Assembly: GCF_033110965.1 (NCBI RefSeq)
Contig: NZ_CP137003.1
Span: forward strand, 310,001 to 374,000
Reading direction: 5' to 3'
Source: Raineyella sp. LH-20
Lineage (GTDB): Bacteria; Actinomycetota; Actinomycetes; Propionibacteriales; Propionibacteriaceae
DNA length: 64,000 nucleotides
The translations under genes and the position numbers were made by a program. Positions within the stretch are counted from its first letter, which is position 1, and every line of letters starts with the position of its first letter. Below are positions 3,735 to 5,960 of the stretch, one piece after another. Under the pieces are notes generated by a model that was not told the DNA's origin, ran no database searches, and saw only the letters and a list, made by a program, of their open reading frames with translations.

Positions 3735-3787
3735 GAGAGGGTCGTTACCCGCCAATGGACGGCGTTCTGCCGCGTGAAGGAGCAAAT

Positions 3788-4381
3788 ATGAGCTACCAGC
3801 TGCCCGATCTCCCGTACGACTACAACGCCTTGGCCCCGGCCATCGTCCCGGAGATCATGGAGCTGCACCACGACAAGCACCACGCCACCTACGTGAAGGG
3901 CGCCAACACCGCGCTCGAGCAGCTGGCCGATGCCCGCGACAAGGGCAACTTCGGCGTCATCAACAAGCTGGAGAAGGACCTCGCCTTCAACCTCGGCGGC
4001 CACTTCAACCACTCGGTCTTCTGGACCAACATGGCGCCGGGCGGCTCCGAGCCGACCGGCGACATCAAGTCCGCGCTGGACACGAAGTTCGGCGGCCTGG
4101 ACTCCTTCAAGAAGGAGTTCTCCGCGGTGGCGCTGGGCATCCAGGGCTCCGGCTGGGCTGTCCTCGGCTACGACGCCCTCTCCCAGGACCTGCGGGTCTA
4201 CCAGGTCTTCGACCACCAGGGCAACCTGCCGGTCGGCCAGACCCCGCTGCTGCTGCTCGACATGTGGGAGCACGCCTTCTACCTGCAGTACAAGAACGTC
4301 AAGGCGGACTTCGTGAACGCCTGGTGGGACGTCGTCAACTGGGACAACGTGAACGAGCGCCTGACCAAGGCCACCGCCTGA
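3788..4381 (+). CDS. sodA: Superoxide dismutase, Fe/Mn family
   Basis: This enzyme dismutates superoxide to oxygen and hydrogen peroxide in the cytoplasm. The ATG at 3788 follows GAAGGAG and gives 197 residues, the usual length; a longer frame from 3755 adds 11 residues but lacks that site. Metal ligands are visible: His27 (ELHHDKHHATYV), His75 (GGHFNHSVFW), and the Asp and His of LDMWEHAFYLQY. Fe and Mn enzymes cannot be told apart reliably by eye; in Propionibacterium freudenreichii the single enzyme is cambialistic and accepts either metal. It has its own probable promoter and ends at a strong hairpin, so it is likely monocistronic. Confidence 0.96.
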   Translation: MSYQLPDLPYDYNALAPAIVPEIMELHHDKHHATYVKGANTALEQLADARDKGNFGVINKLEKDLAFNLGGHFNHSVFWTNMAPGGSEPTGDIKSALDTKFGGLDSFKKEFSAVALGIQGSGWAVLGYDALSQDLRVYQVFDHQGNLPVGQTPLLLLDMWEHAFYLQYKNVKADFVNAWWDVVNWDNVNERLTKATA

Positions 4382-4400
4382 TCACAGCAGCCACGGGTCA

Positions 4401-4465
4401 GGCACTGCTTGATCACGGCACCGCTTGATCTTGATCACGGCACCACTGATCGGCACCGCTTGATC
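4401..4465. repeat. Short imperfect repeats after sod (TTGATCACGGCACC)
   Basis: Three related units of 16-18 bp lie here: TTGATCACGGCACCGC at 4409-4424, TTGATCACGGCACCAC at 4431-4446, and a variant GATCGGCACCGCTTGATC at 4448-4465. They fill the space between the sod stop codon and its terminator. Function is unknown. Confidence 0.6.
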
Positions 4466-4499
4466 GCAGCTCCCAGGTCGGAGCCTGCGTCGTACGTCC

Positions 4500-4535
4500 G
4501 AAAGGGTGGGTCTCCACAGGGAGGCCCACCCTTTC
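4500..4535 (+). terminator. Terminator hairpin downstream of sod
   Basis: A 15-bp stem (4500-4514 with 4521-4535, one G-T wobble) closes a six-base loop. There is no T-run, which is common for actinobacterial terminators. It sits about 120 bp after the sod stop codon. Confidence 0.75.
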
Positions 4536-4630
4536 GGCGCGTCCTGCGGTGCCGCCGCGGTGCCCGCACGCCGCCCTGCCCATCCACGCCCGTATCTCCC
4601 CGCGCTGCGGGCGCGACAGTGGACCTGACC

Positions 4631-4672
<42 letters not shown>

Positions 4673-4914
4673 ATCGCCCCCCGCGTTGCGGGCGATGATG
4701 GGGTGCTCCTCAAGCACCTTTGGTCGGCTCTACGTTTCGCCCACGCAAAGGTGCGCGTCATTCAGCAATCATGCGTGGGCACAACGCAGAGCTGTGGCTT
4801 CGTGCGTGAGGCGACCCAGGGTTTCGGGGACGGATCGCGAGAATCCGGGCGTACGGCGGCGCGCGGAGCAGCTGAACGTCGAGCGGCCGACGCTGAGCCG
4901 ATAGGCGCTCCCGA

Positions 4915-4956
4915 CACCGGGCACCGGACACCGGGCACCGGGCACCGGGCACCGGC
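4915..4956. repeat. Six tandem copies of heptamer CACCGGG
   Basis: Exactly six 7-bp units follow one another; the second ends CACCGGA and the sixth CACCGGC, the others are CACCGGG. No coding role is apparent. Confidence 0.85.
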
Positions 4957-5004
4957 AGGGCAGGTCATCGACCGGCGCCGATACCGCTGCGACGCCGCGA
5001 CGGC

Positions 5005-5374
5005 ACCCTGGCGTTCCCGCCGGAAGACACCCTGGCGTTCCCCGGAAGACACCCTGGCGTTCCCGCCGGAAGACACCTGGCGTTCCCGCGGGAACGCAAC
5101 CGGGCAGAACCCGGGCACAACACCTCCCGCAGCGTTCCCGCGGGAACGTCATCAGACATGATCCGGGCATCGTCAGCCGCCATCCGGGAGCATTCGGGCA
5201 TGACCTGAACGTCGGCCGCCCAACCGAACGTTCCCGTGACACGTGGCGTTCCTCCGGGACGTGGCCTTCCTGCAGGGATCCGGCGGTTCCGAACGGACGT
5301 GGCCTTCCTGCAGGGATCCGGCGGTTCCGTACGGATGTGGCGGTCCGTGAGATCGTGCGTTCCCGCGGGAACGC
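5005..5374. repeat. Cluster of CGTTCC..GGAACG palindromic elements
   Basis: A perfect 16-bp palindrome, CGTTCCCGCGGGAACG, occurs three times (5081-5096, 5133-5148, 5358-5373). Just before the first are three imperfect versions inside a tandem array of 22-24 bp units (5005-5028, 5029-5050, 5051-5074). Further degenerate forms lie near 5229 and 5247. About eight related sites thus fall in 370 bp. The spacing is irregular after the array, unlike CRISPR. It could be a REP-like element family or a protein-binding cluster. Confidence 0.8.
5257..5332. repeat. 38-bp tandem duplication
   Basis: Bases 5257-5294 and 5295-5332 are adjacent copies that differ at one position near the end (GAAC versus GTAC). 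Each contains a PstI-like CTGCAG and a BamHI-like GGATCC site. The second copy creates a CCGTACGG motif. Confidence 0.85.
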
Positions 5375-5376
5375 CA

Positions 5377-5409
5377 CAGGGCGTGGAAGGGAAGCCCTTC
5401 CACGCCCTG
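5377..5409 (-). terminator. Terminator hairpin of the alpha operon, after rplQ
   Basis: A perfect 15-bp stem (5377-5391 pairing with 5395-5409) closes a three-base AAG loop. It lies 30 bp beyond the rplQ stop codon and may work in both directions, shielding the repeat region. Confidence 0.85.
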
Positions 5410-5438
5410 TCGACGTACGTACCTGAGTCGGTCTCCGA

Positions 5439-5960
5439 TCAGGCCTTCTCGTCGGCCTTCGGCTCGGTAGCCTCGACGGTCTCCTCGACCTCAGCCTCAG
5501 TGACCTCAGCCTCAGTCGCCTCAGCCTCGGTGGCCTCGGCGAGCGCCGCCTTGATCTCCTCGGCGGACTCGGTGGTGGCCTGCGCGGCGGCCTTCGGGGT
5601 CACCTTCTCGGTGATCACTTCGATCTTGGCCATCGGGGCGTTGTCGCCCTGACGGTTGCCGATCTTGGTGATGCGGGTGTAGCCGCCGTCGCGACCCTCC
5701 ATCGCCGGAGCGATCTCGGTGAACAGCACGTGCACGACGCTCGGGTCGGTGATGGTCTTCAGCACCACGCGGCGGGCGTGCAGGTCGCCCCGCTTGGCCT
5801 TGGTGATCATCTTCTCGGCCAGCGGACGGACCCGCTTGGCCTTGGCCTCGGTGGTCACGACTGCGCCGTGCTCGAACAGCTGGCTGGCCAGGTTGGCCAG
5901 GATGATGCGCTCGTGCGAGGCGCTGCCGCCCAGACGGGGGCCCTTGGTGGGGGTAGGCAT
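5439..5960 (-). CDS. rplQ: 50S ribosomal protein L17
   Basis: L17 is a large-subunit protein near the exit-tunnel side. The conserved core is residues 1-120 ([42 protein letters not shown]-like segment, RRGDNAPM-like end). The 173-residue protein then carries a tail of about 50 residues made almost only of Ala, Glu, Thr and Val (repeats of TEAE and TEAEV), which is acidic and unusual next to the basic core. Such tails occur in several actinobacterial L17 proteins; this one is repetitive at DNA level too. It is the last gene of the alpha operon. Confidence 0.97.

Follow-up and report, generated by a model that had tools for sequence, protein, structure and literature searches.

A dispersed perfect palindrome in Raineyella and its association with one branch of DUF222-HNH nuclease genes

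The window analysed in this work is a stretch of 64,000 nucleotides, bases 310001-374000 of the single-contig 3.63 Mb genome of Raineyella sp. LH-20. Two convergent genes enclose the gap studied here: an open reading frame on the plus strand at 3755-4381 (start at 3788 according to the gene caller), which from its sequence we take to be a sodA-like superoxide dismutase gene, and one on the minus strand at 5439-5960, found both as an open reading frame and by the gene caller, which from its sequence presumably encodes an rplQ-like ribosomal protein L17. The exact 16-mer CGTTCCCGCGGGAACG, a perfect palindrome, is found three times between them, at 5081-5096, 5133-5148 and 5358-5373. The first copy is the end of a 23-bp tandem array at 5004-5094 (3.9 copies, 91% matches), whose units are degenerate forms of the palindrome, and the third is located two bases from a terminator-like hairpin of rplQ (5376-5410, 16-base arms, 100% complementary in the predicted fold). 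A 38-bp direct repeat (5257-5341, 2.2 copies in the tandem-repeat call) carries degenerate half-palindromes. Further degenerate forms were found at 5012 and 5058 by a mismatch scan and by eye near 5036, 5229, 5247, 5286 and 5324, where the one at 5247-5262, CGTTCCTCCGGGACGT, also gave a partial inverted match. On the sodA side, a second terminator-like hairpin covers 4498-4537 (18-base arms, 94% complementary). Tandem arrays of a GGCGCG hexamer (4631-4670) and a CACCGGG heptamer (4915-4955) are present in the same gap.

An earlier note on this DNA had described three perfect 16-bp copies and about five degenerate ones within 370 bp of a convergent gap, with the first perfect copy closing an array of imperfect units of 22-24 bp. 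The exact copies, the mismatch scan and the forms seen by eye agree with this description, and the array was recovered with a unit of 23 bp. When up to three mismatches are allowed, eight matches are found in the window, against a mean of 1.58 in shuffled sequences (largest value 7, and eight reached in 0 of 100 shuffles). An Rfam scan of positions 4300-5500 of the window gave five weak matches with E-values up to 1, all far under the gathering score. Transcription termination, which the note had mentioned among possible functions, is unlikely as the main role of the palindromes at this site because both flanking genes have long hairpins of their own.

Searching the whole window genome for the 16-mer gave 32 exact copies, compared to none for a reversed control, and 49 matches against one when up to two mismatches were allowed. 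Three other genomes of the genus contain 4, 15 and 26 exact copies. In the genus genome G003, the same sodA-rplQ gap has an exact palindrome adjoining the rplQ terminator-like hairpin, together with two one-mismatch copies recognised by eye. The cluster in the window is thus a station of a genome-wide repeat, and not the purely local duplication that the note had considered as the alternative, since copies occur throughout the genome, in three relatives within the genus and in the same gap of G003.

For a description of the repeat, 73 copies from three genomes (32, 15 and 26, respectively) were aligned. The copies sit in flanks of unrelated sequence, both intergenic and coding. Position -1 is a purine in 70 of the 73 copies and position +1 a pyrimidine in 70, and the next positions outward are G (44 copies) and C (52 copies). 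The consensus of the repeat is roughly the 20-mer GR-CGTTCCCGCGGGAACG-YC, and the constraint outside the 16 bases is confined to these neighbouring bases. At the RNA level, the folding energy of the 20-mer is -12.2 kcal/mol, and the first two exact copies of the window (copies 1 and 2) are able to pair with each other.

According to our own gene caller, on which every coding and intergenic count given here depends, 22 of the 73 copies are coding, 30 lie in tandem gaps, 15 in convergent gaps and 6 in divergent gaps, where 84% of the stretches is coding. The share of divergent gaps is 3 of 35 among palindrome-bearing gaps and 44 of 235 among other gaps, a weak difference. A 3' end is adjoined by 45 of the 51 intergenic copies, against 76% expected, and 12 of these 45 are found within 20 bp of the 3' end, against 12% expected. 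These counts suggest a mild preference for gene 3' ends; within the gaps, the distance to the 3' end is near random (mean rank 0.44 compared to 0.5).

Coding copies are translated as VPAGT or FPRER and, judged by eye, are mostly located in linkers or in protein tails. All 17 VPAGT peptides (17/17) are encoded by the palindrome, and the chance of such a codon choice is about 3e-5, for stretches that had been preselected for palindromes. In three species (L031, L071, L064), the exact palindrome occupies corresponding positions of a NifU-like gene, although GTT and GGA are rare codons there. Palindromes were also seen inside a ligD-type ligase gene (G000:C1 2846892, L038) and a gene of the impB/mucB/samB family, similar to DNA polymerase IV (G002:C1 1255006, L070). 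The coding copy at 917157, for which G003 has 14 of the 16 bases, looks like a point mutation of normal coding sequence. Some palindrome sites are common to different species though their flanks have diverged.

Direct repeats flanking the copies, as expected for target duplications, were no longer than random (5.72 compared to 5.72), with the single exception of one G003 copy framed by a 13-bp direct repeat. Compared to G003, the genus genome G000 is longer by about 30 bases at 924725 and by about 75 bases at 1486579, each time including a palindrome, and these are either insertions in one genome or deletions in the other. Together with the 13-bp repeat of G003, the extra palindrome-bearing bases of G000 provide supporting but thin evidence for mobility. 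The 16-mer was present in 16 of 393 genomes of a sample of the class and in 10 stretches of a viral collection.

In the search for a partner of the repeat, genes within 2.5 kb of copies were compared across taxa. DUF222-HNH genes were the family found under most taxon labels (10), followed by a different family with 9, and they were conspicuous for having copies within the gene itself, as in 10 of the 14 members listed. DUF222 is, by its Pfam name, a domain of unknown function. Both PF02720 and PF01844 were above the cut-off in all seven such genes of one set and in nine of ten of a second set; the exception, L184, is truncated by the end of the locus, with DUF222 alone visible. Among solved proteins, a group II intron maturase has an HNH similar to that of the DUF222-HNH proteins (E 4e-5), and the resemblance to Cas8-HNH, IscB and McrA is weaker. 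PADLOC and NCBIfam gave weak matches in the HNH region only. Within the genus, genes of one branch have the palindrome in the variable linker that separates DUF222 from HNH, and it is absent from the other DUF222 loci that were examined.

This branch was delimited by a cut at about 130 bits, against at most 87 bits for other DUF222 genes, a cut chosen after the gap was seen. In 97 genomes of the family, not picked by palindrome, the palindrome was present in 15 of 15 genomes with a branch gene and in 8 of 82 without one (Fisher p 3e-12, a test that treats as independent genomes that are not). Without the four genus genomes of the discovery, the numbers are 11 of 11 and 8 of 82. Copies inside the branch gene are included in these counts, and G013 and G027 have no copies other than such in-gene ones. 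At the level of loci, of which 30 were returned, the exact palindrome was found at 14 of 15 branch loci (11 of them inside the called gene) and at 0 of 15 other DUF222 loci. The fifteenth branch locus has a one-mismatch copy, giving 15 of 15 when one mismatch is allowed. Among the four genus genomes, the number of copies, in-gene copies counted, rises with the number of branch genes, from 4 copies with one gene and 15 with two to 26 and 32 with three.

Eight genomes of the family have the palindrome and no detected branch gene (G005, G007, G040, G041, G049, G064, G084 and G089), and in 12 stretches around their copies no DUF222-HNH gene was found. Low completeness is no explanation for the missing gene in G007 (99% complete, 4 copies), G040 (99%, 3 copies) and G041 (100%, 1 copy). 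In an empty-site comparison, a branch gene located at 1.474 Mb in G000 and at 1.811 Mb in G002 was absent from G003, and the junctions showed no palindrome or clear scar.

Beyond the family, a scan with the 20-mer gave at least 116 loci, of which the 80 listed (L124-L203), selected for holding the 20-mer, were considered. By record titles, these come from at least Geodermatophilaceae, Brachybacterium, Propionibacteriaceae, Gemmatimonadota, Vicinamibacteria and a few other bins. The 80 loci contain 104 copies. Of these, 28 are coding and 15 lie at locus ends; convergent gaps have 23, tandem gaps 32 and divergent gaps 6. A nuclease match at E 1e-20 was obtained in 32 of 41 palindrome-bearing genomes from which these loci come, a set that partly repeats members of the family (G513 and G524 have the same places as G027 and G032), and 15 of the 41 pass 130 bits in one stretch. 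The remaining 9 of 41, in a set consisting mostly of bins of unstated completeness, gave no nuclease match at this E-value. For 27 genomes of the class, 11 of them with a palindrome copy, the corresponding numbers are 13 and 3.

In 8 of the 31 listed loci (L303, L305, L307, L309, L310, L311, L313 and L314), the nuclease gene is bracketed by copies upstream and downstream. Distances to the gene are 55 bp upstream and 3 bp downstream in L311, 55 and 7 bp in L307, and 448 bp upstream and 13 bp downstream in L310, which has an additional copy in the middle of the gene. L305 carries copies 503, 395, 259 and 52 bp upstream as well as 5 bp downstream. Branch genes with the palindrome inside were also found in Gemmatimonadota (L165) and Vicinamibacteria (L184), and a contig of the phage collection encodes a homologue with 38% protein identity, the gene of which contains the exact 16-mer.

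A tree of 58 proteins, many from loci chosen for palindrome presence, contained a split (SH-aLRT 97, quick method) with 41 rows on one side, 36 of which bear a palindrome in the gene or within 520 bp, while the other side had 0 of 17. Proteins shorter than 330 amino acids and near-duplicates were left out of the tree, and L024 and L049, which are one gene, were both kept. The 36 rows comprise 34 with the main form of the palindrome and two with the form CGTTTCCGCGGAAACG; five of the 41 rows on the branch side have no palindrome within 520 bp. Branch genes without the 16-mer within 520 bp were noted in a genus of f17 and in two Modestobacter records (L292, L298, L290, L302), and these may use other palindromes.

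The variant CGTTTCCGCGGAAACG was first met in DUF222 genes of G104 and G521, with two and four copies, respectively. It was found in 0 of the 40 other genomes of the 42 scanned, where G104 and G521 had been included on the basis of this sighting. The second copy in G104 lies in the linker of a protein that we labelled kinase-like. In G521 the variant coincides with a motif that is conserved in the protein, so that it may simply reflect ordinary coding, and this case is weak. Upstream of a homologue on a Rhodococcus plasmid, another symmetric variant, CGTCCCCGCGGGGACG, is located at 1314-1329 of L337, where the annotated start is at 1423.

The placement of the copies on the chromosome was counted with parS as the mark of the origin. 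After collapsing into clusters, 21 of 23 clusters in G000, 10 of 11 in G002 and 17 of 19 in G003 were in the origin half, and the largest palindrome-free voids were 1.1, 1.8 and 2.0 Mb, respectively (Rayleigh p at most 0.002). Two clusters of G000, an exception, are near the point opposite parS. Copies of G071, which belongs to another genus, are not centred on the origin, and 4 of its 11 clusters outside the gene are within 50 kb of its DUF222-HNH gene, compared to 0.27 expected. Within 100 kb of branch genes, 12 of 20 clusters were found in G000 against 2.7 expected (p 0.013, with a 200-kb jitter per site as null), 6 of 9 in G002 against 1.0 expected (p 0.018) and 5 of 16 in G003 against 2.4 expected, which is weak; in G043 the count near branch genes was 0 of 10. 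The neighbourhood of branch genes was favoured in three of the five genomes (G000, G002 and G071), using a test for which three window sizes were tried and the lengths of G071 (3,986,877) and G043 were rounded.

The pairing of palindrome and DUF222-HNH gene suggests a previously unrecognised partnership of a repeat and an enzyme. We give about an even chance to the proposal that the palindrome is recognised by the nuclease, which would promote its spread or its maintenance. The cluster in the window would then be one old station of a dispersed repeat that belongs with the DUF222-HNH branch in the way that REPs belong with RAYT genes. A homodimer of the nuclease would most likely recognise the 16-20 bp palindrome, and the perfect symmetry, together with the existence of symmetric variants, agrees with recognition by a dimeric protein or with a hairpin formed in single strands. 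Nicking or cutting could lead to repair-coupled copying of the palindrome into tolerant places, such as intergenic regions, protein linkers and protein tails. The nuclease gene typically has the palindrome between DUF222 and HNH, in its flanks or in both, and would form one unit with it, and continued recognition would keep copies that otherwise decay, as may be the case for the 23-bp array in the window. This proposal builds on the repeat family and its symmetry, the tie to the gene branch, the carriage in and around the gene, the shared sites and the two symmetric variants; DNA binding and cutting by the nuclease, movement of the repeat and a possible gain for the host would be putative additions to these. 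The more far-reaching version is that, in at least three phyla, this branch of orphan nucleases supplies the enzyme of a selfish system which resembles a REPtron without being related to RAYTs, and that it recognises and spreads a perfect 16-20 bp palindrome also present within its own gene's reading frame; this version is tentative and in our judgement falls short of an even chance.

Other explanations were weighed against a partnership with the nuclease. The palindrome could be the binding site of a chromosome-organising protein, acting in nucleoid occlusion or in an origin domain, with sites selected near the origin and rare near the terminus. The sites of Noc and SlmA are known to be selected around the origin and to be rare near the terminus, and our palindromes are similarly scarce in the half of the chromosome around the terminus in three genus genomes. 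The origin-half bias, the perfect symmetry and the sites kept in common by species with diverged flanks would all be expected for such a site. Copy numbers ranging from 0 to 32 among relatives are, however, ill-suited to a core cell-cycle site, G000 has two clusters opposite parS, G071 is not origin-centred, and the palindromes in and around DUF222-HNH genes would be left unexplained. A ParB-type search (PF02195) gave one strong match in each of the four genus genomes and a second, below the cut-off, in two of them, and on this count a ParB/Noc paralogue was rejected as the binding protein; in having no second full ParB, the genus differs from the Noc and SlmA case. From the idea of a partition or nucleoid factor in the earlier note the origin-half trend remains, and we regard a chromosome-organising site as improbable. 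It is equally improbable that the DUF222-HNH protein, or a regulator linked to it, uses the palindromes as operators for its own gene and neighbouring genes, with the dispersed copies as a regulon. Many loci have copies at distances of 15 to about 500 bp before a branch gene, which, together with the symmetric variant upstream of the Rhodococcus homologue, argues for operators, whereas the weak difference in divergent gaps, the 22 coding copies among 73 and the positions in the middle of genes or just past stop codons, which are poor places for operators, argue against them.

A function at the RNA level, with copies acting as bidirectional hairpins, terminators or mRNA 3' ends, is very unlikely. 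The RNA fold of the 20-mer, the possible pairing of copies 1 and 2 and the mild 3'-end preference are in its favour, but longer hairpins are already present at both genes of the window, coding copies exist, and a terminator needs no exact sequence identity across phyla. Regulation or termination alone is disfavoured by the positions of the copies. There is also the explanation that the palindrome is a REP family moved by an overlooked Y1 tyrosine transposase (RAYT), for which the linkers of DUF222-HNH genes are tolerant targets. The tandem, convergent and intragenic placement is REP-like as far as passages of PMC3733652 describe it, and perfect palindromes also characterise another, second REP group mentioned in PMC8266576. 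Mere tolerance of the linkers fails because 14 of 15 branch loci carry the palindrome and 0 of 15 other DUF222 loci do, and copies are placed on both sides of DUF222-HNH genes at eight loci. A RAYT-driven family is for these reasons unlikely.

The proposed partnership with the nuclease has several features in common with REP/RAYT systems as presented in passages of PMC2817692 and PMC8266576: short palindromes are scattered over the genome, the gene for the enzyme has them in its flanks, and enzyme and repeat tend to be present together. In PMC2817692, the passages argue the link between RAYT and REP from the repeat-flanked gene, the correlation of gene and repeat, and coevolution. In our case the enzyme belongs to the HNH nucleases and carries DUF222, whereas in the systems of these passages it is an HUH tyrosine transposase, the IS200/IS605-like TnpA-REP. 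Furthermore, the 73 aligned copies have symmetric flank preferences only and are without the unpaired GTAG/CGTC tag described in the text excerpted from PMC3733652, copies occur within the enzyme's own reading frame, and there are tens of copies at most, where more than 100 are usual in the account of PMC2817692. A perfect palindrome is not a distinguishing feature, because the second group in the passages of PMC8266576 includes perfect-palindrome REPs. The missing tag and the unrelated enzyme set the palindrome apart from REP-RAYT, so that we do not class it as a member, although it may work like one. The suggestion of a REP family or a DNA-binding cluster in the earlier note is thereby retained in part: the family is dispersed and symmetric and has a mild 3'-end preference, but it has no GTAG/CGTC tag, 22 of 73 copies are coding, and the associated gene is a DUF222-HNH nuclease.

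Possible relatives are the CGTC REPs, including dRS3 of Neisseria and RPE-4/RPE-6 of Rickettsia, which in the passages of PMC3733652 share tandem and convergent gaps, intragenic copies and copies in DNA-repair genes, here the ligD-type and impB/mucB/samB-family genes. Those repeats are described in the same passages with an unpaired CGTC tag, a loop of 4-5 bases and mostly a CCA tail, whereas the CGTC of our 20-mer belongs to its symmetric stem and there is no conserved tail. For the CGTC REPs, the excerpted text knows no dedicated transposase and poses the question as open. Mycobacterial DUF222-HNH/REP13E12 elements have the same domain pair by name and are repeated in the genome, and the passages of PMC10589994 describe no palindrome link; this comparison is by description alone.

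In the literature searched (titles, beginnings of abstracts and passages), no report of a link between the palindrome and DUF222-HNH was found, nor were the 16-mer and its 12-base core, and by title none of the literature mentioning DUF222 was on its function. A palindrome tied to one branch of DUF222-HNH genes is a concrete candidate substrate for these genes. It also bears on the question raised in the passages of PMC3733652, which concerns a large class of palindromic repeats without a known mobilising enzyme. If true, the version with a REPtron-like system would give DUF222 proteins a first function and palindromic repeats a second route for colonising bacterial genomes.

A minor observation concerns the second branch gene of G002 (G002:C1 1810501-1811927, L073), which is apparently split between frames and in which the palindrome of the linker is intact.
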